Shown: piece by piece, positions 12,489 through 29,455 of the stretch | How positions within the stretch are numbered: the first letter of the stretch is position 1 | How the letters are laid out: every line of letters begins with the position of its first letter | Source of the DNA: a virus | Direction: 5' to 3' (one strand) | Virus record (IMG/VR): IMGVR_UViG_3300036985_000961 | Location: 1-29,455 of that record | Length of the DNA stretch: 29,455 nt | The notes under the pieces: model-generated | What the model was told of the DNA's origin: nothing | Seen by the model: only the letters and a program-made list of their open reading frames with translations | Databases searched by the model: none | Program-made: the position numbers and the translations under genes

Positions 12489-12739
12489 CCAACGACATTA
12501 AACTAATAGCAGCGACCTCAATCCTCCCGGTACTTGCTGACTTCCTCGAAGATCTAAACGAAGACAAAGCGTTTAGAACCGATATGAAAATGGCAACGCT
12601 AAACCTCATCGGACAAATACGAAAACTCGATGAAAGGATAATGAAGAACGCAAGTAACGAGACAAGCGAACAACAGGTAAACATTCAAATAGCATTCAGA
12701 CAATGGATAAAATCGGCACAACCTACGGACGAAAACTAA
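12485..12739 (+). CDS. Hypothetical helical protein upstream of the DnaA-like gene
   Basis: An 84-residue, mostly helical and acidic protein (ILPVLADFLEDLNEDKAF, MATLNLIGQIRKLDERIMK). It starts in an ATGA overlap and its end overlaps the start of the DnaA-like gene by 37 bases. Its position makes a role in replication plausible, but no motif supports a specific function. Confidence 0.55.
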   Translation: MTNDIKLIAATSILPVLADFLEDLNEDKAFRTDMKMATLNLIGQIRKLDERIMKNASNETSEQQVNIQIAFRQWIKSAQPTDEN

Positions 12740-13146
12740 GCTACATAAAGAAGAAACTACCTAAGCGGAACTTTTACACTATGCACGAGTTTTACTTGAT
12801 TTGTCCGTACTCACACGAGGAGTTGAAGATACCTAACCGAAGCCGAGATATAATGCAATGGAGGCAGTTAGGAATGGTTTGGTCGTGTTTATCAGGCAAC
12901 TCACTTGTTGAGTCGGGTCGTATGTTCGGCAAAGACCACGCAACGGTTGTTTACTCGCAGGAGATGATCGTGTACGCATTAGACGGCTTTCACCCACTAC
13001 TCAACGAGAAACTTCAAGACGTACTGGAGTGCATCGAAATAGCCCAAACCGAAGCGAAGGACTTTAATACGTCGTTGATAATTTCGAGTAGGCACATTGA
13101 AAGATTGTTAATAAATAAATATAAAAGAATTAACCAAATGAAATAG
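12703..13146 (+). CDS. Stand-alone DnaA domain IV-like DNA-binding protein
   Basis: A 147-residue protein whose residues about 45-90 match the DNA-binding domain IV of the bacterial initiator DnaA. Visible are RSRDIMQWRQLGMV, then SGNSLVESGRMFGKDHATV, which parallels the DnaA signature FGGRDHTTV (here Phe75, Asp78, His79, Thr81, Val82). The AAA+ domain of DnaA is absent. The protein probably binds double-stranded DNA at an origin or operator; a non-coding, structured segment follows directly (13147-13279), then replication genes. The start at 12703 overlaps the previous gene by 37 bases; ATG at 12781 is a shorter alternative that keeps the domain. Regulation of host initiation by competing for DnaA boxes is another possibility. 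Confidence 0.7.
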   Translation: MDKIGTTYGRKLSYIKKKLPKRNFYTMHEFYLICPYSHEELKIPNRSRDIMQWRQLGMVWSCLSGNSLVESGRMFGKDHATVVYSQEMIVYALDGFHPLLNEKLQDVLECIEIAQTEAKDFNTSLIISSRHIERLLINKYKRINQMK

Positions 13147-13173
13147 GTAATACTTATATTTATAGACAAGTTC

Positions 13174-13255
13174 GCTTCCACATTATAGAACTTTAAGGTG
13201 TTATTTAGCCCTATTAATCAGTAGCGACGTGGAAGCCGTGAAAGTTAATGGGGCT
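13174..13255 (+). ncRNA. Candidate pseudoknot RNA overlapping a terminator
   Basis: Two stems interleave. Stem A: GCTTCCAC (13174-13181) with GTGGAAGC (13229-13236), 8 perfect pairs. Stem B: AGCCCTATTAA (13207-13217) with TTAATGGGGCT (13245-13255), 11 pairs with one G-U. The 3' half of stem A lies in the loop of stem B, giving an H-type pseudoknot order. It sits between the DnaA-like gene and the next replication gene, with a weak TATATTTA box at 13155-13162. It could be an attenuator, a small RNA or a DNA-level binding site. Confidence 0.4.
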
Positions 13256-13260
13256 TTTTT
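13207..13260 (+). terminator. Intrinsic terminator before the DUF6291-like gene
   Basis: An 11-bp stem (13207-13217 with 13245-13255) with a 27-nt loop, followed by T residues to 13260. The loop is longer than usual and carries GTGGAAGC, which can pair upstream. No clear promoter lies between it and the ATG at 13280, so downstream genes depend on readthrough. Confidence 0.65.
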
Positions 13261-13279
13261 ATTGACTAAATTTTAGAAA

Positions 13280-13873
13280 ATGGGTAAAGAAAAAGGTAGG
13301 GAAACAATGATTGTATATCGGTCATTCTTTGAGTCCCTGAAAGGTTGTGAAAAGGAAGTACAAGCAGACGTTTGGAATGCCATTTTTGAAATGGGTTTTA
13401 ATCAAAAGGAAGTTGAACTGGATGGATTAAGTAAAACACTTTGGTTGCTTATTAAGCCACAAATAGAAGCAAACTTAAAGCGGTTCTTAAACGGGAGCAA
13501 ACCAAAACAAAAGCAAAACGTAAGCGAAACGGAAGCAAAAACGAAGCAAGAACGAAGCGAAAGTGAAGCTAATAACAATAACAATAAGAATAACAATAAT
13601 ATAACACGCACACCTTCTAAAAATAAACAACCCTTTTTGGAGGAAGTTATATCTTACTTTAATGAAAACAACTATACAACCGAAAGTGCAACCAAAGCAT
13701 TTAATTACTACCACCCTGAATGGAAAGACTCCCAAGGTAAACGAGTGTTAAACTGGAAGCAGAAAATGCGTGGTGTTTGGTTTAAAGATGAGAACCTAAT
13801 TAAAGGTGACGAAGATTTAACACTTGACCAACAACTTTACCGCAACGTAATGGCACAAATCAACAACCGATGA
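13280..13873 (+). CDS. DUF6291-like protein, probable replication initiation/helicase loader
   Basis: A 197-residue protein. Residues 10-65 (IVYRSFFESLKGCEKEVQAD, WLLIKPQIEANLKRFLNGSK) match the DUF6291-type domain found at the start of replication genes in Bacteroidetes phages. A low-complexity linker rich in Q, E, K and N (about 70-110) follows. The C-terminal part (FLEEVISYFNEN, FNYYHPEWKDSQGKRVLNWK, KMRGVWFKD) resembles the end domain of phage replication proteins of the DnaT/DnaD sort. It overlaps the helicase gene by four bases, so a loader or initiator role is likely. An internal ATG at 13307 (residue 10) is an alternative start. Confidence 0.6.
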   Translation: MGKEKGRETMIVYRSFFESLKGCEKEVQADVWNAIFEMGFNQKEVELDGLSKTLWLLIKPQIEANLKRFLNGSKPKQKQNVSETEAKTKQERSESEANNNNNKNNNNITRTPSKNKQPFLEEVISYFNENNYTTESATKAFNYYHPEWKDSQGKRVLNWKQKMRGVWFKDENLIKGDEDLTLDQQLYRNVMAQINNR

Positions 13874-14745
13874 ATAGTACACTTAAATACCTTTTCGATT
13901 ATAAAGACGGACTCATAAAACAAGGGTTAGGGTTGGATATTGAGTTAGACAACTACCTTCGGTTTAAACCTAAGCAGTTAAACATTATTCTCGGACACGA
14001 CAATGTAGGTAAAACCTATTGGATTAATTGGTATTTCCTTGCACTTACCTCAAAGCACGGTTTAAAGTGGTGCATATGGTCGGGTGAAAATCAAAGCGGT
14101 CAAATTATGCGAGATTTAATTCAAATGTATTCGGGTACTTCCTACAAGAAATTAACGAAGTCTGAAATTCAGCAGTATTATTTGGTACTTGAACCATACT
14201 TTACGTTTATTCCTAACGACAAGCTATACACACCTGAAGAGTTGTTAAGCATCTTTGAAAATACGGACTGCAACGCTTGTTTAATTGACCCCTTCACGGG
14301 ACTTGACCGCCAAATGGGTTACGAAGCAAACTACCGCTTTCTAAATATGGCACGTCAGTTTTGTAATACTACGGGAAAGACCATCTACATAAACACTCAC
14401 CCAACTTCCGAAAGTGGACGAAGTGGAATGCTGTACGGAGACGACCAAAAAGAATGGAAAGGTCACCTAAAACCACCATTGAAAGACCACATTGAAGGTG
14501 GTAAGGCATTTTTGAATAGGTGCGACGATATGTTAGTTGTTCACCGCTTAGTAAAACACGAAACAATGAAGTATGAAACGATGATAAGCATTGAAAAGGT
14601 CAAAGACACCGACACTGGAGGAAGACAAACCACGCTAAACCTGCCCGTAATGTTTAACTTTAACTCTGGGTTGGGCTTTAAATGCGGAAGCGTTGACCCA
14701 ATCAAACGAAACAAACCAAATACTAACAACGATTTACCTTTTTAA
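13870..14745 (+). CDS. RecA-fold ATPase, probable replicative DNA helicase
   Basis: A 291-residue protein with a Walker A motif GHDNVGKT (residues 42-49, Lys48), a following IWSGENQSGQIMRD segment with the likely catalytic Glu73, and a Walker B strand CLIDPF (Asp140). These are arranged as in AAA_25/DnaB-like RecA-fold helicases, without the N-terminal primase-binding domain of full DnaB. It likely unwinds phage DNA at the fork, loaded by the product of the preceding gene. The C-terminus ends in NNDLPF, closely resembling the DDLPF-type tip of bacterial SSB proteins. The next gene starts right after the stop. Confidence 0.75.
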   Translation: MNSTLKYLFDYKDGLIKQGLGLDIELDNYLRFKPKQLNIILGHDNVGKTYWINWYFLALTSKHGLKWCIWSGENQSGQIMRDLIQMYSGTSYKKLTKSEIQQYYLVLEPYFTFIPNDKLYTPEELLSIFENTDCNACLIDPFTGLDRQMGYEANYRFLNMARQFCNTTGKTIYINTHPTSESGRSGMLYGDDQKEWKGHLKPPLKDHIEGGKAFLNRCDDMLVVHRLVKHETMKYETMISIEKVKDTDTGGRQTTLNLPVMFNFNSGLGFKCGSVDPIKRNKPNTNNDLPF

Positions 14746-28721: not shown

Positions 28722-29455
28722 ATGGCTAAAAAACTAAAATTTGACTTGACGGTTGACAACAGTGCGTTGCTTCAAGCAAACCCGTCCGAGTACTATTCAA
28801 TCCTTTACGGAATGGAGAACGCAGTAACAAACTACCGAGTTCTACCGGGTATTAAAAACAAAACGAAAATTGCTACGGTTTTATTTTCCGAAGTATTGGC
28901 AGAAAGTGGCTGTAACTTTTCCGCTCAAGACGCAGACCTTAGCGCAGTAGACATTGATGTTTGTGCGTTGACTTCTCAAGCGTCTGTTTGTCAGTTTGAC
29001 TTGGAGCAATCTTTCCTTGCTTTGGAAATGGCTAAAGGTTCAAACTCGGACTTTTCAGTTGCTTCGTTTATGAATTTCTTTTATTCACAAATGGCGAAGA
29101 AAGGTCACCAAGAACTTGCACAATTGATGTGGAAAGGTGACACTGGAAGTGCTACTCCTGCGTTGACTTTGTGTGATGGTTGGTTGTTGCGTTTGTGTAC
29201 TGCTGCTGACTATATCAATGGTGGTGCGGGTGCTCTTACTTCATCTAACGTACTTGCTGCAATGGCTGCTGTATTGACTGCTGCAACTCCTGAAATGTTG
29301 GTTAACCCTGCAATGATGCAATTCAAAGTTTCTGCAAACGTTGCGGCTGCTTATCGTATTGCTACGGCTGCAACTAACACAGCAACAAACGTAACAACAG
29401 GTTTGTCTTTGACTTACTTGGATATTCCAGTTGTTGTTGAGTATGGTCTTCCTGC
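28722..29455 (+). CDS. Major capsid protein, N-terminal part (continues at 1-326)
   Basis: The 5' part of a 310-residue protein interrupted by the ends of the linear sequence; the unique portion is 28722-29328. It starts MAKKLKFDLTVDNSALLQAN two bases after the protease stop. A central block with QELAQLMWKGDTGSATPALT and LCDGWLLRLCTA resembles the (L/M)-(F/M)-W-x-G-(N/D) ... x-G-(L/W) block of HK97-fold capsid proteins from Bacteroidetes phages. The capsid is expected to be assembled on the scaffold-like tail of the preceding protease. Codon choice is more regular and T-ending than in early genes, in keeping with strong expression. A terminator follows the stop. Confidence 0.85.
   Translation, partial: MAKKLKFDLTVDNSALLQANPSEYYSILYGMENAVTNYRVLPGIKNKTKIATVLFSEVLAESGCNFSAQDADLSAVDIDVCALTSQASVCQFDLEQSFLALEMAKGSNSDFSVASFMNFFYSQMAKKGHQELAQLMWKGDTGSATPALTLCDGWLLRLCTAADYINGGAGALTSSNVLAAMAAVLTAATPEMLVNPAMMQFKVSANVAAAYRIATAATNTATNVTTGLSLTYLDIPVVVEYGLP
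29329..29455. repeat. Right copy of the 127-bp terminal overlap
   Basis: Identical to 1-127. It lies inside the capsid gene and keeps its frame when joined. Counted once, the circle is 29,328 bp. Confidence 0.95.

Follow-up and report, generated by a model that had tools for sequence, protein, structure and literature searches.

A predicted kissing-loop RNA with a terminator hairpin at the head of phage replication-initiator operons

The stretch of viral DNA analyzed here (29,455 nucleotides of IMG/VR record IMGVR_UViG_3300036985_000961, hereafter the window) carries at 13155-13260 an interleaved RNA element, a Bacteroidetes promoter box followed by a predicted RNA of about 94 nt. In the predicted RNA, hairpin 1 is connected by a linker to a terminator hairpin, and an 8-bp kissing interaction joins the loops of both hairpins. 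Judged from its homologues, the element is nearly certain to be an RNA structure, and its four helices, namely hairpin 1, the terminator hairpin, the inner helix and the 8-bp loop-loop pairing, are shown by comparison: all four are retained through compensatory changes in over 80 distinct relatives from viral contigs. The element nearly always heads a replication-initiator operon, whatever the type of initiator, and the RNA is common to many phages of Flavobacterium-type bacteria. We class it as a new RNA family, without a match in Rfam 15, whose general kind (structured phage leader or small RNA) is already known. Its parts in the window are as follows.

13155-13162, + strand: promoter -7 box TATATTTA (consensus TAnnTTTG), with the predicted transcription start at 13167
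13167-13260, + strand: predicted RNA of about 94 nt, delimited by promoter box and terminator
13168-13193, + strand: hairpin 1, stem AAGTTC (13168-13173) with GAACTT (13188-13193), 14-nt loop GCTTCCACATTATA
13174-13181, + strand: kissing strand 1, GCTTCCAC, forming 8 bp with kissing strand 2
13194-13206, + strand: linker of 13 nt; a related pattern, AAGGnnTTATT, recurs in many relatives (alignments A1 and A2)
13207-13255, + strand: terminator hairpin, arms AGCCCTATTAA (13207-13217) and TTAATGGGGCT (13245-13255)
13224-13239, + strand: inner helix GCG (13224-13226) with CGT (13237-13239) within the terminator loop, an AGTA/GAA internal loop beneath it
13229-13236, + strand: kissing strand 2, GTGGAAGC, in the apical loop of the inner helix, pairing with the hairpin 1 loop
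13255-13260, + strand: T-run of the intrinsic terminator, read from the sequence; six to seven T is the commonest run length among relatives

A preliminary description of this DNA had reported two interleaved stems, and both lie where it placed them: GCTTCCAC pairs with GTGGAAGC, and AGCCCTATTAA pairs with TTAATGGGGCT, with one G-T pair in the latter, a terminator loop of 27 nt as it had claimed, and T at 13255-13260. Its reading was right in that the RNA structure is interleaved and includes a terminator; the fold is not a simple H-type pseudoknot. The loop of hairpin 1 consists of GCTTCCAC followed by ATTATA, so that the nested AAGTTC/GAACTT stem encloses kissing strand 1 and the interaction is one of loop with loop. 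The original observation is confirmed as real and the element is larger than first described, with hairpin 1, the inner helix, the TAnnTTTG-type -7 box and carriers among cultured phages now added. A simple terminator scan gave no match at the site because of the scan's loop limit; the GC-containing 11-bp stem and the six T that define an intrinsic terminator in sequence are both present and conserved.

Relatives were gathered through homologues of the flanking proteins and with a DNA pattern limited to ACATTATA, CCCT and GGGnTTTTT. Most close relatives carry, right after the stop codon of a DnaA-like gene, an RNA unit with different letters, in which the kissing words are paired as CATCCTAC/GTAGGATG, CTCTCCAC/GTGGAGAG and GCTCTCAC/GTGAGAGC, among others. 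A descriptor scan of the ACATTA class recovered 30 distinct kissing words of 7-8 nt or more, and further words occur in other classes. The dimensions of the unit vary little: the linker measures 10-16 nt in 86 unique relatives, and the length from hairpin 1 through the terminator stem falls in a narrow range of 84-95 nt. The R1 model matches the window at 13168-13260 (E 1.5e-14), its single copy in this genome.

The covariation is clear in a 20-row alignment whose rows were selected by a descriptor requiring some kissing, with 97.4% of cells paired, double changes in 23 of the 29 pairs, and a covariation score of 0.823 against 0.239 for shuffled rows and at most 0.143 with slid partners. Hairpin 1 covaries at all six of its pairs and the inner helix at all four of its aligned pairs; among these kissing-selected rows the 8-bp kissing helix is paired in 100% of cells, with double changes in six pairs and two pairs invariant. 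Double changes affect seven of the 11 pairs of the terminator stem, where the search pattern itself imposes part of CCC/GGG, so that the invariant pairs there are not evidence. Because selection had required kissing, two less biased tests were made. Hits to a kissing-free sequence pattern contained the exact in-register 8-nt complement in 69 of 80 compact viral cases, and the remaining 11 have 6-7 bp on reading the listed sequences; swapped words gave an exact complement in 0.34%, and 0 of the 117 hits that this pattern had in cellular genomes contained one. For the second test, 81 rows were aligned to a model lacking kissing pairs (there is some redundancy among the IMG/VR contigs, the effective number being about 47), and there the kissing columns were among the strongest covarying, with z up to 16. 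The covariation check proposed in the preliminary description is therefore passed by both of its stems, together with two further helices. An ordinary terminator with a second stem present by chance would agree with the nested folding energy, which taken alone is unremarkable at the element (z = -0.94), but homologue covariation in four helices refutes this reading, and we give it virtually no credence.

The comparison of upstream regions also clearly supports a discrete transcription unit. Of 109 distinct upstream regions, 85 contain a strict TAnnTTTG box and 102 a relaxed one, where 0.033 would be expected per region, and nearly all of these boxes lie 17-21 nt ahead of the first kissing strand; the window's own copy has a final A instead of G. 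The same box occupies -12 to -5 in F. psychrophilum (PMC9723704), so that transcription would be expected to start at the foot of hairpin 1. An own promoter with a predicted start at the base of hairpin 1, plus an intrinsic terminator, is strongly supported. The preliminary description had seen no promoter between the terminator and the ATG at 13280, which agrees with our finding for the window and with 0 TAnnTTTG boxes between terminator and first ATG in 86 unique relatives.

The neighboring genes and a predicted origin place the element within a replication module.

12703-13146, + strand: upstream gene, DnaA domain IV only (PF08299, Pfam E 1.3e-8)
13280-13873, + strand: downstream gene of DUF6291 replication-initiator type (Pfam PF19808, E 3.7e-11)
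13499-13599, + strand: predicted origin of tandem repeats, about five 11-bp iterons (13499-13556) and an AT-rich AATAAC array (13571-13599)
13870-14745, + strand: DnaB-like replicative helicase gene (PHROG matches, best E 2.9e-21)

The preliminary description had suggested control of helicase expression; replication genes do follow, but the immediate neighbor is the DUF6291 initiator type and the helicase comes second. Across the family, an initiator-type gene lies within 2.5 kb 3' of the RNA in 90 of 115 distinct contexts, most often about 25 nt away or less, or about 200 nt away with a small intervening gene. Several initiator types are represented, among them DUF6291 and DUF1376-like. Contexts without one are mostly short contigs or contain other replication genes, and two loci, L199 and L224, are true exceptions; their RNA copies (L199 1820-1913, L224 6964-7059) sit away from a recognised initiator, and the L199 copy precedes virion-type genes. 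In L246, L085, L094 and others, HNH/NUMOD4-like endonuclease genes separate the RNA from the replication genes and look like insertions at this junction.

Upstream genes are variable. The preliminary description had offered the element as a DNA site of the DnaA-like protein encoded just before it, and that gene does adjoin the element in the window and is found upstream in 48 of about 115 distinct contexts. Many carriers nevertheless have other upstream genes, the complementary arms vary freely while staying complementary, promoter box and T-run are both conserved, and no fixed DnaA-box-type sequence was present across relatives; a DNA binding site is thus scarcely credible. The protein itself has, of DnaA, just the DNA-binding domain IV, and belongs to an IMG/VR homologue group reaching down to about 33% identity, with no match among cultured phage records.

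The window's iterons and AT-rich array lie inside the initiator gene. Tandem repeats, many with 10-12-bp units, occur in 88 of 100 downstream kilobases (the first kb after the RNA) and in 64 of 195 control stretches; those after the RNA mostly lie 240-350 or 500-630 nt past it. Tandem iterons in initiator genes suggest an origin there, and we infer a lambda-O-like origin inside the initiator gene. It is conceivable, given this iteron-like enrichment downstream and the window's own iterons, that the RNA is linked to the origin and primes replication or activates an origin within the initiator gene. We consider this unlikely, as the terminator would end the RNA well ahead of the repeats and the origin function of the repeats is itself a prediction.

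We tentatively propose, with a confidence somewhat short of even, that the kissing fold serves as an attenuator gating the start of phage replication, and that it would also release a stable small RNA. The RNA would fold while emerging; most transcripts would stop at the T-run to give the compact RNA of about 94 nt, and some would read through into the replication-initiator gene and across its iterons. The passing fraction would set the initiator level, because no other promoter box serves the initiator gene, and would set origin transcription as well. Such a gate might be tuned by a protein of phage or host, or by another copy of the RNA through loop-loop pairing. The terminator's location in a 5' leader, with other promoter boxes absent before the next gene in 86 of 86, favors this proposal, as do the initiator-type gene in 90 of the 115 contexts and the same placement in unrelated cultured phages. 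Against it, all-pairs covariation in the 81-row alignment placed no conserved competing (antiterminator) helix among the top covarying pairs, so that the element is not a textbook two-state attenuator or switch. The operon may instead be transcribed from an antiterminated upstream transcript or a non-consensus promoter, and the L199 and L224 copies lack an adjacent recognised initiator.

The sharp 5' and 3' ends of the predicted RNA suit a free small RNA equally well, a role that the preliminary description had named beside attenuation. Such a stand-alone RNA might have its targets in trans, whether RNAs of host or phage or a protein of the host, and happen to be located at the head of the replication module. 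Its own promoter box and terminator, the predicted start flush with hairpin 1 and the narrow length of 84-95 nt agree with this reading, which we regard as possible if doubtful. Its position ahead of replication operons is, against this, kept across very different phages. Moreover, the kissing words vary and match elsewhere in their own contigs about as often as chance predicts (5 against 3.9 expected, and 2 against 2.1), which argues against a conserved seed. Free variation of the loop words, set against the general conservation of ACATTATA, the linker and the internal loop in this class, suggests that the fold matters more than the word. A kept fold with free words would be a better fit for a leader contacted by a protein or the polymerase than for a seed RNA directed against a fixed host target.

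The covariation fits pairing within one molecule or between two copies alike. It is therefore conceivable that the RNA forms a dimer or larger assembly, its loops pairing between molecules as in phi29 packaging RNA, and by our estimate the class I linker of 10-16 nt is near the limit for a fully stacked monomer. A linker of at least 10 nt in all 86 unique relatives, however, hints at an intramolecular tether, and the element is found at replication rather than packaging genes in nearly all cases; we give an assembly of this kind only a slim chance. Returning to the proposed gate, it is tempting to speculate, although we think it quite improbable, that RNA already made by a resident phage uses its loops to pair with those of the leader just emerging from a phage of the same type, and so shuts the gate on the latter's replication operon. 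If this self-recognition were true, the loop words would be swappable copy-number and superinfection specificities, and the whole would amount to a single-RNA incompatibility system for phages.

Parts of this arrangement have precedents. The plasmids pT181 and pIP501 control replication by attenuation, with a terminator in the leader of the initiator gene and an antisense RNA from the opposite strand. The element too has a terminator in an initiator-gene leader, but it showed no covarying competing helix. The oop RNA of lambda is a short terminated RNA near the origin and the initiator gene O with its iterons, is read against the direction of O, and has no kissing hairpins. The element is likewise a short terminated RNA adjoining an iteron-containing initiator gene, and differs in its kissing hairpins. 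The put RNA of the lambdoid phage HK022, a cis-acting antitermination RNA that contacts RNA polymerase and suppresses termination, has two simple hairpins without loop-loop pairing and is not itself a terminator. Compared with the element by position and hairpin count alone, and with no sequence relation claimed, put is alike as a structured RNA that heads early phage operons and acts on transcription in cis (PMC9378689), as is proposed for the element. The phi29 pRNA is a phage RNA with complementary loops in which, in one report (PMC12670572), sequence varies and the fold is kept. It is tied to DNA packaging and assembles on the packaging motor, whereas the element is the shorter of the two, stands at the head of replication operons and has a terminator hairpin at its end; the three-way junction of pRNA is absent from the element's consensus fold of two hairpins. 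GOLLD and ROOL are phage RNAs as well, likewise with covarying kissing loops and no known function (PMC12286853), but they run to hundreds of nucleotides, lie near tRNA islands and form RNA nanocages, and the element has no Rfam match to either.

The preliminary description had not recognised a known RNA family, and our searches bear this out. Rfam 15 gave no match in the window at gathering thresholds; in E-value mode the best matches scored far under the gathering scores and none fell at the element, and the element was likewise unmatched in the loci of 16 relatives. A BLASTN query of phage records with the element returned short terminator-like fragments only. A pattern scan of cellular genome contigs yielded chance matches, with kissing in 0 of 117. 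One match was found among 397 Flavobacteriaceae genomes; its contig, number 164, may be of phage origin, so we do not call it a host gene. A literature search on Flavobacterium and Cellulophaga phages, with most subscription journals outside its reach, found no description of the RNA.

The element appears to move between phages as a cassette, or to act as a recombination joint between modules. The RNAs of L141 and L186 are 100% identical, while the adjoining DnaA-like proteins are 45% identical and the downstream proteins unrelated. Conversely, L002 and L089 encode DnaA-like proteins that are 100% identical, and the window and L081 ones that are 97% identical, beside different RNA alleles. Identical RNAs with unrelated flanks, together with near-identical upstream genes beside different RNAs, indicate that the RNA is exchanged like an allele.

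The same architecture is present in the cultured Flavobacterium phages morran9-1, tooticki6-1, stinky9-1, snork6-1, hattifnatt9-1, lillamy9-7, elemoA, elemoC and elemoD, where the RNAs lie upstream of initiator and primase genes with purine-rich and pyrimidine-rich words on opposite hairpins, and in Cellulophaga phage phi19:1. These findings add a structured RNA family, found in many Bacteroidetes phages, at the step that starts phage replication. Cultured carriers with known hosts, such as tooticki6-1 on Flavobacterium sp. LMO6, elemoA on Flavobacterium sp. BAL314 and phi19:1 on Cellulophaga baltica, make promoter, termination, folding and function directly testable, and the many interchangeable loop words pose the question of what selects for RNA specificity in phages.

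Cellulophaga phage Nekkels_1 seems to carry an elaborated form of the RNA; by eye, its locus (L385, about 2320-2490) has two loop pairings, ATTGGAA/TTCCAAT and GTCTAAC/GTTAGAC, set around a very long terminator hairpin. Matches to the Rfam DUF805b cis-regulatory RNA (RF02914) occur in the phage loci L379 (868-902) and L224 (7371-7403), one of the two lying in the replication region of Flavobacterium phage morran9-1. In the window itself, the protein of the first open reading frame (1-130) repeats the end of the last (29330-29455), so that a short terminal direct repeat and a circularly complete phage genome are probable for this record.
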